From: a virus
Virus record (IMG/VR): IMGVR_UViG_3300024350_000034
Coordinates: 1 to 23,182 of that record
Strand: one strand, 5' to 3'
Length of the DNA stretch: 23,182 nt
This document shows, piece after piece, positions 1,113-6,915 of this stretch (position 1 is the first letter of the stretch; every line of letters starts with the position of its first letter). A program made the position numbers and the translations under genes. A model generated the notes under the pieces. That model did no database searches. It was not told where the DNA came from and was given only the letters and a program-made list of their open reading frames with translations.

Positions 1113-1448
1113 ATGACCAACGATATTATCAAGAACAAGAAACTCTGGCTACCAGAAAGGGCATATGGCATCTGTCTATGGATTATGCCAGATGGCCTTC
1201 CTCTTATGGACGCTGATAAAAATGTCCTTTGCGCAGAAGGATTTATAAATGATGAGAAAGTAGAGGCTCAAGTTCTTGAGGCTGTTAAGTATTGGACTGG
1301 TGATGATCAAGGCTATGCTGCTTGGATACCGGGGGCTAGAAAAGTTTCTGATTCCGAAAGAGAAGATCAGCAAGAGAGACTTAGCCTTGGGTATACCCCA
1401 GATCCATACGAAGATGTTTTAGATACTTATTTAAGGAGAAATAAATGA
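1113..1448 (+). CDS. Unknown 111-aa protein upstream of the portal
   Basis: I do not recognise this family. The protein is soluble-looking, with many Trp and aromatic residues near the N-terminus (KLWLPERAYGICLWIMPDG) and an acidic, Tyr/Pro-containing C-terminal half. It has no signal peptide or clear membrane segment. The ATG at 1113 has no Shine-Dalgarno sequence but a -10-like TATGAT lies 7 nt upstream, so it may be translated from a leaderless mRNA. Its 3' end overlaps the portal start by 4 bases (AAATGA), and the portal ribosome binding site AAGGAG lies inside its last codons, so the two are likely co-transcribed and translationally coupled. Position suggests a head-assembly or early packaging accessory role, but nothing in the sequence proves it. 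Confidence 0.8.
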   Translation: MTNDIIKNKKLWLPERAYGICLWIMPDGLPLMDADKNVLCAEGFINDEKVEAQVLEAVKYWTGDDQGYAAWIPGARKVSDSEREDQQERLSLGYTPDPYEDVLDTYLRRNK

Positions 1449-3061
1449 CTTTGACTCATATAGATGATCAAGATATTTCTGAAGGCGTTGAAATAGATGA
1501 ACTTACTTATCATCAAATAATTTCTAAATTAGAATCATCTGATCCATTTAGCAATATTAAATTGAATAGTCTTTCTCCCAAGATGAAGCGTAAATATTAT
1601 TCGCTTCAAAAGAAGATGACTGGAAATCCAGATAGTGTTGGAACTAAATATATAGATCCAGAGCAAATTGTTGGATATTCATTATTTGATGTTGTTTATC
1701 CGCCATACGATCAAGAGAATTTAGCTAGTCTTTTTGATCAAAGCGCAATTCAAAATGCCGCTGTTAATGCCAGAGTTATGAACACTGTTGGTCTTGGATT
1801 TGAATTTGTAGAAACTACAAAAGCCAGAAGAAAGATTGAGAAATCTCAAGATAATGAAGAAAAGCTGGCAAGAGTAAGAAAATCTCTTCATGATGAAAAA
1901 GATAGATTAGAAGATATATTTGAAAATCTAAATGATGAAGAGACTTTTATTGAAACAATGGTACGTGTTTGGCTAGATGTTCTATGCACAGGAAACGGAT
2001 ATCTTGAAATAGGTAGAACTGTATCTGGTGAAATTGGATATATCGGCCATGTTCCCTCAGTCCTTGTTCGTGTTCGCAGAAAGCGTGATGGATTTGTTCA
2101 AATGGCTAGAAGCAACAAGATCCAAGCTGTTTTCTTTAGGAACTTTCAGGATAAAGAAACTCCTGACCCAATCAATAATGATCCTAATCCTAATGAGATG
2201 ATACATTTCAAACTGTATTCACCAAATAATACATACTATGGTATATCTCCAGCAGTTTCTGCTGCTGCAGCAATTATTGGTGATAAGTTTGCAAAAGAAT
2301 ATAATATTGATTATTTTGAAAACAAAGCTATACCTAGATACGCAATAATTATTAAAGGCGCTAAGTTAAGTGCAAAATCAAAACAAGAGTTGATTAATTA
2401 TTTTAGAAATGAAGTTAAGGGAAGAAACCATGGAACACTGGTGATACCAGTTCCTGCTTCTATAGGTTCTGACGCTGATATTAAATTTGAAAAACTAGAA
2501 GCTGGGATTCAAGATGCTTCGTTTGATAAGTACAGAAAATCAAATAGGGATGAAATTCTAGTAGCAAACAGAGTACCGGCTCCAAAAGTTGGCGTTTATG
2601 ACAATGCTAATTTAGCTGTGTCTAGGGACGCAGATAAGACATTTAAGACTCAAGTAATTGGCCCAGATCAAGCCATTATAGAAAAAAGAATAAACAGAAT
2701 TGTTGCAGAATTTACTGATCTTTTATGTTTAAGATTTAAGAGAATTGATCTTGTTGATGAAGATATTCAGTCAAGAATATACGATAGATATTTGAGAACA
2801 GAAGTCGTAAGTCCTAATGAAGTCAGAAGTCATTTAGGATTCCCTGAAAGAACTGATGGCGACGATGTTTTGCCATTCCCAACAAAGATTAAGAAAGAAG
2901 GTGCTGGCGCTCCGTTTGGAAATTCTAATAATCAATCAGAATTTCCTCCGAAGGCGAGAGTAGACACACCAGCGGGGGCTTCTGACAATGTAGCAAATGG
3001 CGATCAAGCTGAAAGAGGCCAGAGTCAAGATTCTGGCCAGAACAATGGAGGCAATCAATGA
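1445..3061 (+). CDS. Phage portal protein (PBSX/HK97-like)
   Basis: The portal forms the dodecameric ring at one vertex of the procapsid through which DNA is packaged and to which the neck attaches. At 538 aa it has normal portal size. Family-typical features are the early IVGYSLFDVVYPPYD region, the NEMIHFKLYSP plus YYGISPAVSAAAAI block around residues 250-280, and a helix-rich C-terminal half containing the EVVSPNEVRSHLGFPERTDG segment that precedes the tail. The last 50 residues are Gly/Asn/Gln/Ser-rich and likely disordered. AAGGAG at 1433-1438 lies 6 nt before the ATG. The gene overlaps both neighbours by 4 bases (ATGA), which indicates translational coupling. Family assignment is by recognition of sequence pattern and of the portal-protease-capsid order. 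Confidence 0.92.
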   Translation: MTLTHIDDQDISEGVEIDELTYHQIISKLESSDPFSNIKLNSLSPKMKRKYYSLQKKMTGNPDSVGTKYIDPEQIVGYSLFDVVYPPYDQENLASLFDQSAIQNAAVNARVMNTVGLGFEFVETTKARRKIEKSQDNEEKLARVRKSLHDEKDRLEDIFENLNDEETFIETMVRVWLDVLCTGNGYLEIGRTVSGEIGYIGHVPSVLVRVRRKRDGFVQMARSNKIQAVFFRNFQDKETPDPINNDPNPNEMIHFKLYSPNNTYYGISPAVSAAAAIIGDKFAKEYNIDYFENKAIPRYAIIIKGAKLSAKSKQELINYFRNEVKGRNHGTLVIPVPASIGSDADIKFEKLEAGIQDASFDKYRKSNRDEILVANRVPAPKVGVYDNANLAVSRDADKTFKTQVIGPDQAIIEKRINRIVAEFTDLLCLRFKRIDLVDEDIQSRIYDRYLRTEVVSPNEVRSHLGFPERTDGDDVLPFPTKIKKEGAGAPFGNSNNQSEFPPKARVDTPAGASDNVANGDQAERGQSQDSGQNNGGNQ

Positions 3062-3318
3062 GCGAAAGCACTTTAGTGTATTCAAATCCAGCAGCGACTA
3101 GTGCTGATGGTGTGGTGAGTTTAAATCATCATACCGACTCAATATATTTTATGAGTCAATCACTAGATTTTGCTGATGTTAAATTAAATGGAAAATATAT
3201 TGTAAGAATAGGCCATGGTCAAGTTGAGGCTCATTTTTATAATGAAATACCCGGCGATTATACGACTTTTGAAATTCTTACTGCAGGCGTTACTCTTTCT
3301 GTGTTTGCAGTCGGATAA
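3058..3318 (+). CDS. Small beta-rich virion-associated protein, tandem copy 1
   Basis: An 86-aa protein with no helix-forming stretches and regular alternation of polar and hydrophobic residues, so probably a small beta-sandwich. It is a clear paralogue of the next gene: both share the patterns LVYSN.A.TS..GV, NHHT and IPGDYT followed by E.LTA and ending VFA.G. TGGAGG at 3046-3051 lies 6 nt before the ATG, and the ATG overlaps the portal stop. Its place between portal and maturation protease fits a minor structural or decoration protein. I do not recognise a named family. It lacks a signal peptide and membrane segment. Confidence 0.85.
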   Translation: MSESTLVYSNPAATSADGVVSLNHHTDSIYFMSQSLDFADVKLNGKYIVRIGHGQVEAHFYNEIPGDYTTFEILTAGVTLSVFAVG

Positions 3319-3326
3319 GGAGAAAA

Positions 3327-3590
3327 ATGAACGGATCTTTAGTATATTCAAATACTGCTATAACTAGTTTAAATGGTGTGATTAATTTTAATCATCATAC
3401 ATCATGTGTTTATATTTTAAATACTGATGTAACATTAGATGCTACGATTAAATTAAATAATATTTATAGTATAAATATTCCTCATACGCCTAATCAAGCT
3501 ACGCGTGCATATGTAAAAATACCCGGTGATTATACGCAAATGGAAGTGCTCACAGCGAACATCACCGTGTCAGTCTTTGCAATAGGATAA
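3327..3590 (+). CDS. Small beta-rich virion-associated protein, tandem copy 2
   Basis: An 87-aa paralogue of the gene just upstream. The best conserved parts are the N-terminal LVYSN and NHHT block and the C-terminal IPGDYT...VSVFAIG block; the middle has diverged. At DNA level an 18-base stretch (3247-3264 and 3519-3536) differs at one base, which supports a local tandem duplication. AAGGAG at 3317-3322, overlapping the previous stop codon region, lies 4 nt before the ATG. The role is unknown; decoration or minor capsid protein is a guess from position. Confidence 0.85.
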   Translation: MNGSLVYSNTAITSLNGVINFNHHTSCVYILNTDVTLDATIKLNNIYSINIPHTPNQATRAYVKIPGDYTQMEVLTANITVSVFAIG

Positions 3591-3630
3591 TTTGTTTTTT
3601 TATTGCAATTAGATTATTATGGAGTGTATA

Positions 3631-5865
3631 ATGAATAATTTCACATTGGATTTTCCAATATCTTTTATAAAAAAAGAAGAAAGAATTGTTGTTGGTATTG
3701 CAACAGCAGACAATATTGATAAAACAGGTGATGTTGTAGATTTTGAGGCTTCTCTTGAAGCTTTTGAAAACTGGGCTGGCAACATTAGAGAAATGCATAG
3801 CCCAATTGCTGTTGGCAAAGCTATTAAATATGAGCCAATAAGAGTGAAGAGCGAAGATGGCGAAGAATATAATGCTATTAAAGTAGAGGCTTATATTTCA
3901 AAAGGCGCTCAAGATACTTGGGAAAAAGTTCTAGATGGCACACTTCGTGCCTTTTCTATTGGTGGGTCTATTGTTGAAAAGAAGATGGACTCTACTCGTA
4001 TGTTCAGAGGCAAGCCTGTTAACATTATTAAGAAATATAGACTTGGCGAGCTTAGTTTGGTAGATAATCCAGCTAATGCTCTTGCTACAGTAGATATTAT
4101 TAAAATGGATACACTTGGCAATCTAGAATATGCTCTAGAAGAAGTATTGAAAGCAGCGAAGCAGCCTTTGAAAGATCCAAAAGGAGGCCTTACTGCCGCT
4201 GGTAGGAGACACTTCAAGCAAACAGAAGGCGCAAACCTTAAGCCCGGTGTTAAAGGCCCAGCCAATACTCCTGAAAAAATGAGAAGAAAAGGATCTTTCT
4301 TAACAAGATTCTTTACTAATCCATCTGGGCCTATGAAAGATGAAAAGGGTAGACCAACTAGATTGGCATTGTCTGCCGCCGCTTGGGGCGAGCCAGTCCC
4401 TCAGAATGCTCAGGATGCCGCTGCACTTGCGGCTAAAGGCAGAAGGCTTCTAGAGAGATATGCCAAGTTAAAAGAAAAAGATGCAAATAAAATTCTTGAA
4501 GAAGATGAAGATATCTTAATGCAAGATATGAATTATTTTATCAACGAGGACTATTCAAAAATATTGGAAGAATTCAATATTTCTAAAGAGGGTGAAGTAG
4601 CTACTTCAAACATGGATGCTGGGTTAAAATACCCAGCCCAAGGTTATCCAAAGAATAGAAAAAAGAAAGTTAAGAAAACAAAAAAGGAGTCATCAATGAG
4701 AAAAGACTATACTGAATATACGACTCTAAATGATGTTCTTAAATGTACCCTATCTAATGCTGTCGTTTTTTACTTTGCAGCACACAGGGCACATTGGAAT
4801 GTTGAAGGGCCTGATTTCTTTGAGTACCATTCTTTGTTCAAAGATATTTATGAAGATGTTTATGATTCTATAGATTCTTTTGCAGAGAATATTAGAAAAC
4901 TGAATGACTTTCCCCCGCCTATTGGCGACATGGAAGATCACTCAGAATACGAAGACGATTCAGCCTCTTCTGACGCTAAAGATCTATCATTAGATTTGTA
5001 TATGAAGAATAAAACTTTAGTAGATGTATTGAAATACGCTTTCAATATAGCTAGTTCATCAAATGAACAGGGTATTGCAAACTTCATTGCAGATAGAATT
5101 GATAAGCATCAGAAGTGGGGCTGGCAACTCAAATCTTCATTGCTTGCTGGCGGTGTAGAAATTCCAATTCCAGAAGAAGATATGGATGATCCAGCGGAAG
5201 AAGAGAATGATACAGAAGAATCAGATTTAATAGATATTATGAATCTTTTAAACATGGCTTTTGGCATAACTGAAAAGTCAGAGGTTGAAAAGTTTGATTC
5301 AGATGAAAATATAAAACTTATTAAAATGCAAGATGAATCATTGCAAAATCATGTACAATATGATACAGTTGAAACTATGAACGAGCAAGAGGTCAATAAG
5401 CTCTCTTTAATTAAGAGAATGATAAACTGGCTGGTTCCAGATGTTCAAGAAAATACTTCAACCATTTCAATAGTTGAAGAGTCTATCACTACACAGGAGG
5501 ATGAAATGGATATCGAAGTCCTTAAGGACGCTCTTGGTGCCGTTGTAGATCAGAAGCTAACTGCTTTTGCTTCTTCGATTAAAGAAGAAGTTGAAGTAGC
5601 AATGCAAGAAAAGATCGACAATCTCACAAAGAGTTTTGAAGCCAACAGCGTTGAGCTTCAAGAGAAGTTAGAAGCTACTGAAAAGGCTCTCGCTGAACAA
5701 GAAGAGCAAGTAAAGGCTTTTGGCAAATCAGGCGCTATCAAAAAGAGCGTCGATCCAGAAGATGATGATGAGAATGAGCAGATCGTTAAGTCTCATCCAG
5801 CTTCAGTTTGGAATAATGTGTACCTGCCTCAGGGTATTATAAGTGCTCTAGGCTATAAGTCATAA
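3631..5865 (+). CDS. Maturation protease - DUF6321-like - Dps-like - scaffold multidomain protein
   Basis: Four modules share one 744-aa frame. Residues 1-165 are a XkdF/U35-like prohead serine protease, with a likely catalytic His56 (EMHSPIAVG), Ser109 (LRAFSIGG) and the GELSLVDNPAN block at 139-149. Residues about 181-285 match, from memory, the DUF6321 module (KGGLTAAGRRHF, NLKPGVKG, RPTRLALSAAAWGEPVP). Residues 356-508 resemble Dps/ferritin-like proteins (HWNVEGPDFFEYHSLF, then NFIADRIDKHQKWGW). After an acidic linker, residues 626-744 are Glu/Lys/Gln-rich coiled coil, as expected of a capsid scaffold. ATG 3631 is chosen because GGAG at 3621-3624 lies 6 nt upstream; the earlier ATG at 3619 overlaps that GGAG. 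It directly precedes the capsid gene. Protease-scaffold fusion recalls lambda C/Nu3 and P2 O; the Dps-like insert is unusual. Confidence 0.88.
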   Translation: MNNFTLDFPISFIKKEERIVVGIATADNIDKTGDVVDFEASLEAFENWAGNIREMHSPIAVGKAIKYEPIRVKSEDGEEYNAIKVEAYISKGAQDTWEKVLDGTLRAFSIGGSIVEKKMDSTRMFRGKPVNIIKKYRLGELSLVDNPANALATVDIIKMDTLGNLEYALEEVLKAAKQPLKDPKGGLTAAGRRHFKQTEGANLKPGVKGPANTPEKMRRKGSFLTRFFTNPSGPMKDEKGRPTRLALSAAAWGEPVPQNAQDAAALAAKGRRLLERYAKLKEKDANKILEEDEDILMQDMNYFINEDYSKILEEFNISKEGEVATSNMDAGLKYPAQGYPKNRKKKVKKTKKESSMRKDYTEYTTLNDVLKCTLSNAVVFYFAAHRAHWNVEGPDFFEYHSLFKDIYEDVYDSIDSFAENIRKLNDFPPPIGDMEDHSEYEDDSASSDAKDLSLDLYMKNKTLVDVLKYAFNIASSSNEQGIANFIADRIDKHQKWGWQLKSSLLAGGVEIPIPEEDMDDPAEEENDTEESDLIDIMNLLNMAFGITEKSEVEKFDSDENIKLIKMQDESLQNHVQYDTVETMNEQEVNKLSLIKRMINWLVPDVQENTSTISIVEESITTQEDEMDIEVLKDALGAVVDQKLTAFASSIKEEVEVAMQEKIDNLTKSFEANSVELQEKLEATEKALAEQEEQVKAFGKSGAIKKSVDPEDDDENEQIVKSHPASVWNNVYLPQGIISALGYKS
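4696..5865 (+). CDS. Possible nested product starting at the Dps-like domain
   Basis: In the protease frame, ATG 4696 is preceded by AAGGAG (4684-4689) with a 6-nt spacer, which is as good as the sites used by neighbouring genes. Initiation here would give a 389-aa protein consisting of the Dps-like domain, acidic linker and scaffold. The upstream residues are a Lys-rich linker (NRKKKVKKTKKES), a natural domain boundary. Within the Dps-like domain, His388, His400, Asp415 and Glu419 (numbered from 3631) occupy positions equivalent to E. coli Dps H51, H63, D78 and E82, while the D67 position reads Lys404 with Asp405 next to it. Whether this start is used is unproven: the AAGGAG also encodes Lys-Glu residues of the linker. 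Confidence 0.45.
   Translation: MRKDYTEYTTLNDVLKCTLSNAVVFYFAAHRAHWNVEGPDFFEYHSLFKDIYEDVYDSIDSFAENIRKLNDFPPPIGDMEDHSEYEDDSASSDAKDLSLDLYMKNKTLVDVLKYAFNIASSSNEQGIANFIADRIDKHQKWGWQLKSSLLAGGVEIPIPEEDMDDPAEEENDTEESDLIDIMNLLNMAFGITEKSEVEKFDSDENIKLIKMQDESLQNHVQYDTVETMNEQEVNKLSLIKRMINWLVPDVQENTSTISIVEESITTQEDEMDIEVLKDALGAVVDQKLTAFASSIKEEVEVAMQEKIDNLTKSFEANSVELQEKLEATEKALAEQEEQVKAFGKSGAIKKSVDPEDDDENEQIVKSHPASVWNNVYLPQGIISALGYKS
5506..5865 (+). CDS. Nested capsid scaffold protein
   Basis: In-frame ATG 5506 is preceded by a full AGGAGG (5495-5500) with a 5-nt spacer. The product would be 119 aa, acidic and coiled-coil-like (heptads of Glu, Lys, Gln, Leu and Ala), ending in a short basic and hydrophobic segment just before the capsid gene. 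This is the arrangement of lambda Nu3 inside C, where the scaffold is both the C-terminus of the protease and a separate, more abundant product. The major capsid protein here lacks an obvious N-terminal delta domain, so a separate scaffold is expected. It would be degraded or released by the protease during maturation. The start site is supported by sequence; product abundance is inference. Confidence 0.65.
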   Translation: MDIEVLKDALGAVVDQKLTAFASSIKEEVEVAMQEKIDNLTKSFEANSVELQEKLEATEKALAEQEEQVKAFGKSGAIKKSVDPEDDDENEQIVKSHPASVWNNVYLPQGIISALGYKS

Positions 5866-5883: not shown

Positions 5884-6915
5884 ATGGCAACACAAGAAGA
5901 AATTCTTTCAAAAGCTAATGAAGTTACAACGAGTGTTGTTGGCAATGACTCCGGTGGTTTATTAAAGCCCGAGCAGTCCAACAGATTCCTTGATTTCGTT
6001 ATTGATCAATCAGTGCTTATGCAGAACGCAAGAGTCGTTCGTATGCGCACTCCACAAATGGAAATCGACAAGCTTTCGGTCGGCACTCGTTTGCTGGCTA
6101 AGGCTACTGAGGCAACCGACACCAGCACTAACGCTGCTGTCACCTTCAGCAAGGTTTCAATTAGCACAGTTAAGCTTCGTCTTGACTGGGCACTCAGCAC
6201 CGAGTCGCTAGAGGATAACATCGAAGGCAACTCGCTTGAGGATCACATTGCTCAGGCAATGGCTCGTCAGACTGCTAACGACATGGATGACTTGTTCATC
6301 AATGGCGACACTACCTCTGGCAACGCACTACTCAAGGCCCTTGATGGTTTCGTAAAGCTTGCGAAGGCATCGGGTGTGGTTGTTGACGAAGGCGGTAATA
6401 ACGTGTCAAGAGCTACTTTCGACCGTGTTCTCCGTAACCTTCCCACAAAGTATCTGCAAAGAAGAAGCGATCTTCGTTTCTTCTCAGGTTCTGGTGTGGT
6501 TCAGGATGCTATCTATAGCCTTGGTAACCCCAACAGCGCAACCGCTGCTACTGCAGGCGCTCCCTCGCCAGCCTCAACCGCTGGTGACGCTGCTTATCTG
6601 CAGGGTGCAATGTATGCAAATGGTGGCCCCGGTTCAACTGGCCTCGCTCCATTCGGTATTCCACTGGTTGAGATTCCTCTCATGCCAGAGACTGTTTCGG
6701 GCGACTACTCTGGCGCTGCTGGTTCACATGGTTATGTGGAACTTACCTTCCCCAATAACAAGGTGATCGGTATCCACAGAGATATCACTCTCTACCGTCA
6801 GTTCAAGCCCAAGACTGACACTATTGAGTATACTCAATTCATGAGAGTCGGCTGCAACATTGAAAATGCTGCTTCCTACGTCATTGCAAAGAACGTCAAG
6901 CTTCGTACTCTGTGA
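5884..6915 (+). CDS. Major capsid protein, HK97 fold
   Basis: Builds the icosahedral shell. At 343 aa it fits capsid proteins that rely on a separate scaffold. Family-like features are the N-terminal GGLLKPEQSNRFLDFVIDQS, the RLLAKATEATDT and RLDWALSTESLEDNIEG regions (E-loop and spine-helix area), the AMARQTANDMDDLFINGD block, and the C-terminal NKVIGIHRDITLYRQFKP typical of the P-domain strand. AGGAGG at 5868-5873 lies 10 nt upstream of the ATG. Codon choice differs from the AT-rich neighbours: many AAC, TTC, ATC, CGT, GGC and CTC codons, as in the tail tube gene, which fits selection for high expression. A strong terminator follows 23 bases after the stop. Confidence 0.93.
   Translation: MATQEEILSKANEVTTSVVGNDSGGLLKPEQSNRFLDFVIDQSVLMQNARVVRMRTPQMEIDKLSVGTRLLAKATEATDTSTNAAVTFSKVSISTVKLRLDWALSTESLEDNIEGNSLEDHIAQAMARQTANDMDDLFINGDTTSGNALLKALDGFVKLAKASGVVVDEGGNNVSRATFDRVLRNLPTKYLQRRSDLRFFSGSGVVQDAIYSLGNPNSATAATAGAPSPASTAGDAAYLQGAMYANGGPGSTGLAPFGIPLVEIPLMPETVSGDYSGAAGSHGYVELTFPNNKVIGIHRDITLYRQFKPKTDTIEYTQFMRVGCNIENAASYVIAKNVKLRTL

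Follow-up and report, generated by a model that had tools for sequence, protein, structure and literature searches.

The locus described here raises the question of why a Dps protein should be built into a capsid-assembly gene of a phage and what it would do there. The window, i.e. the whole stretch of 23,182 nucleotides from IMG/VR virus record IMGVR_UViG_3300024350_000034, contains on its plus strand (3631-5865) a single uninterrupted frame of 744 residues in which a prohead protease, a DUF6321 domain, a Dps domain and a scaffold follow one another. The frame ends just upstream of the capsid gene. An earlier note had claimed such a frame with these domains in this order. The frame is present, and the identities and order of the domains proved right when compared with Pfam, PHROG and PDB matches and with the predicted fold.

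The protease domain, delimited by profile matches and an alignment of homologues, occupies residues 1-160 (3631-4110; this and all features below are on the plus strand). Pfam Peptidase_S78 matched residues 93-158 (E-value 4e-5), a match that passes the curated cut-off, and the 744-residue protein matched the PHROG head maturation protease at 2e-52. Residues H56, S109 and E140 are invariant in 33 aligned homologues and, from their position, H56 and S109 are presumably catalytic; the profile match and the conserved His and Ser are those of an S78 prohead protease. The basic DUF6321 domain lies at residues 181-252 (4171-4386; Pfam, 1e-29). A model of the full-length protein was of low confidence (pLDDT 61, pTM 0.31) and was used solely for domain boundaries and disorder. 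It showed disorder at residues 315-358, the Dps bundle at 366-506, mostly disorder at 515-627 and a single long helix at 628-700. Among the matches listed when this model was used in a structure search, all fell on the Dps part and the protease fold was unconfirmed. The model and a comparison of loci define a disordered Lys-rich linker at residues 315-355 (4573-4695), which forms the 5' edge of the cassette slot discussed below. The Dps domain, placed by its Pfam and PDB matches and its fold, covers residues 356-512 (4696-5166), the first of which is encoded by an internal ATG. It is followed by an acidic linker at residues 513-625 (5167-5505), mostly disordered in the full-length model and of net charge -25 by composition, and then by residues 626-744 (5506-5862), where the model and the homologue alignment show the long helix 628-700 and a conserved C-terminal tail. 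This last region is probably the scaffold, judging from its position, its helix and a neighbouring capsid protein without a delta domain.

The identity of the Dps domain was examined by sequence and by structure. Pfam Ferritin (PF00210) matched residues 373-502 at 3e-10, the PHROG Dps family matched residues 363-504 at 1e-24 and all strong matches in a PDB sequence search were to the Dps family, the best being MrgA (8e-14) and HP-NAP (6e-13). Residues 356-514 were modelled with AlphaFold2 from 39 window and locus sequences; the model had a mean pLDDT of 93, and its best matches among solved structures were Dps proteins with TM-scores of about 0.82-0.93 for the top chains. Both sequence and predicted fold thus give a Dps-family four-helix bundle with a short BC helix, and the suggestion that residues 356-508 would fold as a ferritin-like bundle withstood this test. 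Alignment of fused and free phage Dps proteins showed H388, H400, D415 and E419, which we take to be the known ferroxidase ligands of the dimer interface by assignment via Listeria Dps, and all four are kept in the intact fused copies. The domain is probably cage-forming and iron-oxidising. The bacterial proteins MrgA and HP-NAP share the four-helix fold, the short helix between B and C and the ferroxidase ligands at ~24-28% identity; they are free-standing, whereas the window's Dps is fused at both ends to capsid-assembly modules. Pairwise dN/dS values for the fused Dps were 0.01-0.15, similar to those of the protease, some of the estimates being near dS saturation. Because the ferroxidase ligands are kept and dN/dS is at this level, the comparison indicates that the fused Dps is under purifying selection and is being maintained.

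A fusion of this kind could be produced by an assembly or sequencing error that joined separate genes, and one observation points in that direction. The window's gene was found in two further samples at 99.8-99.95% nucleotide identity and one of these, L082 (99.95%), carries a single additional A in the A-tract immediately before the Dps start. The other, L083 (99.8%), comes from another metagenome and has the same uninterrupted frame, 750 residues from stop to stop. IMG/VR was scanned with the whole protein and with its scaffold, protease and Dps parts as queries, which answered the earlier suggestion to look for the same architecture in other phage genomes: the Dps-scaffold fusion occurs in ~18 non-redundant loci of uncultivated phages belonging to two protease clades. 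Clade 1, the window type, includes 14 such loci and clade 2 comprises L230, L315, L316 and L317, whose proteins are of 1006-1086 residues and lack a confident DUF6321 match. Protease, Dps and scaffold are all in one frame in ~15 of the ~18 loci; among the remainder, L153 and L159 are cut by contig ends and L084 has a frame break upstream of Dps. The frame in L083 and those in ~15 non-redundant contigs of two clades rule out an error, to which we attach a negligible probability. The architecture is real and recurrent. No isolated phage with the fusion was found, no phage-collection record covering 80% of either the window's protein or that of L184, and a protease-profile search of GTDB genome contigs revealed no relatives in bacterial genomes. 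The A-rich run at 4666-4695, where L082 has its extra A, contains A_AAA_AAG heptamers and is a possible site of slippage or frameshifting.

The gene has head genes on both sides. A portal gene lies at 1445-3061 and the HK97-fold major capsid gene at 5884-6915, both recognised by profile matches. As the capsid protein aligns with the HK97 capsid model from position 101 only, it has no delta domain and would require a separate scaffold. Between portal and protease (3058-3590) are two tandem paralogous genes of 86-87 residues without a useful family match. In phage lambda, protease C and scaffold Nu3 are encoded in one frame adjoining the capsid gene, and translation of the scaffold begins within the protease frame from a ribosome site of its own. 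The earlier note had drawn this parallel and it holds, since the window's protease and scaffold likewise share a frame that precedes the gene of a capsid protein lacking the delta domain and, as known here from sequence, the scaffold has a conserved internal start. Unlike C/Nu3, the window's gene adds DUF6321 and Dps between protease and scaffold and has a further internal start where Dps begins. The window also shares head genes and their order with the Stanwilliamsviridae, where Streptomyces phage LilMartin has the order portal, small gene, protease, capsid. The LilMartin protease, gp46, is ~53% identical to that of the window, the capsid protein of relatives is ~49% identical, and in this isolate, too, an internal Met of the protease is preceded by a GGGAGG site; its protease differs in having 423 residues and neither DUF6321 nor Dps. 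By these comparisons the phage is related to the Stanwilliamsviridae, family membership not being claimed for a 23-kb virus record.

The evidence for internal starts is strongest at the scaffold. An AGGAGG site conserved in homologues (5495-5500) precedes ATG 5506 and appears as strong as the ribosome site of the window's own capsid gene. In all 66 non-redundant homologues with a locatable scaffold start, this start is an in-frame Met with a Shine-Dalgarno sequence of at least 5 matching bases, compared with 66 of the 976 remaining internal Met codons (6.8%) (Fisher p about 1e-67, a 95% identity filter being the only control for kinship). The codon at -4 from the start ends in G in 53/53 sequences, regardless of which residue (Gln, Met, Glu, Leu or Ala) it specifies, and the codon at -3 is GAG in 46/53, against a GAG share of 33% among Glu codons overall. 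M626 does not vary among 33 aligned sequences, and the scaffold helix begins two residues later, at 628. The conserved Shine-Dalgarno sequence and start codon thus correspond to a putative in-frame scaffold start of the C/Nu3 type. The second site, AAAAAAGGAG (4680-4689), lies before ATG 4696 at the beginning of Dps. An AAGGAG-type site with ATG or GTG is present at this point in 11 of the 14 clade 1 fusions, GTG replacing ATG in L182, and L001, which has no Dps, still carries such a site; one member of the L085/L090 pair has lost it. No internal Dps start was evident in L141, L157, L197 or clade 2; these would produce Dps solely as part of the full fusion or via an unrecognised start. In L082, L084 and the L003 family the frame is broken after the protease part but before the Dps/scaffold part, upstream of the internal starts, so these would still work. 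Nested starts are therefore well supported by the nucleotide sequence. Since the internal ribosome sites are conserved, the 744-residue fusion is probably accompanied by a separate Dps-scaffold protein and by the scaffold on its own.

Comparison of related loci indicates that Dps is an optional, exchangeable cassette, swapped between related phages. Mapped onto a tree of 64 protease sequences, the presence of Dps in its 12 carriers requires 12 changes, whereas 13 of the 14 fused Dps domains fall together in a well-supported clade and the more distant L230 lies next to it. Between L139 and L133 the protease and scaffold are nearly identical, the difference being the Dps block. The proteases of L139 and L149 are 98% identical and their Dps domains 88%, whereas for L115 and L149 the values are 81% and 95%; this conflict argues for exchange and not for loss alone. 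Further modules, Hva1_TUDOR and DUF5824, were found in the same slot. Possible remnants of Dps occur in relatives without an intact domain: an AGVEIPS tail read by eye in L188 (6986-8998) and the last helix in L003 (5995-7797). The patchy presence of Dps and the degraded copy in the L003 family, which keeps only the last Dps helix and DUF5872-like sequence, would suit a transient passenger of little function spread by recombination. Such a passenger would hardly keep its active site intact and its dN/dS at 0.01-0.15 across divergent copies, and we regard this explanation as very improbable. As the majority of relatives lack Dps, it can be of benefit only under certain conditions.

The same behaviour bears on a structural role, in which Dps would oligomerise the scaffold during procapsid assembly and iron chemistry would be irrelevant. 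Dps family proteins form 12-mers and the domain sits directly on the scaffold. However, near-identical phages without Dps indicate that assembly does not need it, and a purely structural core gives no reason for the ferroxidase ligands to be kept. The earlier note had included a simple oligomerising core among its proposals; because the cassette is optional and exchangeable an essential role of this kind is unlikely, and we consider the structural explanation as a whole improbable, though less so than that of a passenger.

The reading that we favour, with somewhat more confidence than doubt, is a nested gene of the C/Nu3 type in which the long form of the scaffold would take Dps along into the procapsid, where it would be retained and serve in iron or DNA protection. 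One mRNA would give the full 744-residue protease-DUF6321-Dps-scaffold protein, a 389-residue Dps-scaffold protein from the start at 4696 and a 119-residue scaffold from that at 5506. The scaffold tail would take Dps as cargo into the procapsid alongside the protease, which would then cut the disordered linkers. The Dps cage would be too large to exit and would stay inside the capsid, where its intact ferroxidase centre could remove Fe(II) and peroxide; DNA binding is possible. Carriage into the procapsid is likely and is made more so by the scaffold, which tethers Dps.

The infected cell is an equally possible site of action for a Dps product. Fusion would then be a matter of polyprotein expression only, Dps being expressed together with the late head genes, released by the protease or translated from its own start, and acting against iron or peroxide stress, while the scaffold tail had no packaging role. 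The internal start would yield a Dps product independent of the protease part, and free-standing phage Dps genes exist, for which a role in helping infected gut bacteria withstand oxidative damage has been proposed (PMC8008677). These genes (PHROG 3636) belong to the same family, those nearest to the window's Dps being up to 53% identical to it and some adjoining a DUF6321 gene, but they are separate genes without a scaffold tether. Their neighbours are mixed and give no single pattern, terminase and portal being among the commonest families. Although free-standing phage Dps is common, no intact fusion has a stop codon between Dps and scaffold, and the fused Dps domains make up a lineage of their own. 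Six carrier contigs of 34-100 kb have no Dps besides the fused copy, and no Dps at all was seen in 11 contigs of 39-106 kb from fusion-less relatives, though contigs in either set may be incomplete. A role confined to the infected cell is, in our estimation, unlikely, albeit the most serious of the alternatives to carriage by the scaffold.

No publication describing a Dps insertion in a protease/scaffold gene was found in the open-access literature, in agreement with the earlier remark that the arrangement was not known to be described. Polyvalent proteins are phage proteins of several domains that are presumed to be carried inside the head, and the main text of the survey describing them leaves Dps, ferritin and scaffold unmentioned (PMC5512222); here, by contrast, the carrier would be the protease/scaffold protein itself. 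In a Vi01-like phage, a ferritin-like protein identified by fold prediction was detected by mass spectrometry of phage preparations and was tied by the authors to the ferrojan-horse entry idea (PMC10892097). It is encoded by a separate gene near the tail genes, and the authors did not connect it with scaffold or protease.

DUF6321 and Dps look like recurrent partners elsewhere. A DUF6321 gene adjoins a free-standing Dps gene in L236, L238, L239, L240, L247 and L248; in several of these it is downstream of Dps, the reverse of the order in L025-L039. DUF6321 genes with a leader resembling the T4 capsid-targeting sequence (MLSFKQYIAEE, MKTLKDFISE) were noted in L026, L028, L029, L033, L034, L038, L039 and L299. 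These are 8 of 90 DUF6321 ORFs, clustered in contigs with a separate Dps gene as well, and as a lead only, DUF6321 may be an internal head protein in the leader-bearing contigs too. A separate protease lineage (L007-L010, L013, L024) has an S78 protease-DUF6321 fusion without Dps, some members carrying a CWxGY...VPNCVP module between the two. In a different phage, L235, a 360-residue ORF with a C-terminal Dps domain (3147-4226) lies just upstream of the major head protein gene.

The nested protease/scaffold gene was already known, and what is new here is the unexpected exchangeable cargo domain within it. If the favoured reading is true, the phage makes a natural cage-in-cage by placing Dps inside its capsid via the scaffold, a form of cargo loading that nanotechnologists build by hand with scaffold fusions, e.g. 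of P22, which would suggest that phage DNA, once packaged, can be shielded from iron and peroxide chemistry. More tentatively, with doubt slightly outweighing belief, the protease/scaffold gene may be a general cargo slot behind an internal ribosome site, its exchangeable modules being made as scaffold isoforms and its virions, where the module is Dps, containing an iron-oxidising cage that protects the packaged DNA. The near-identical phages with and without the cassette provide a ready natural comparison.
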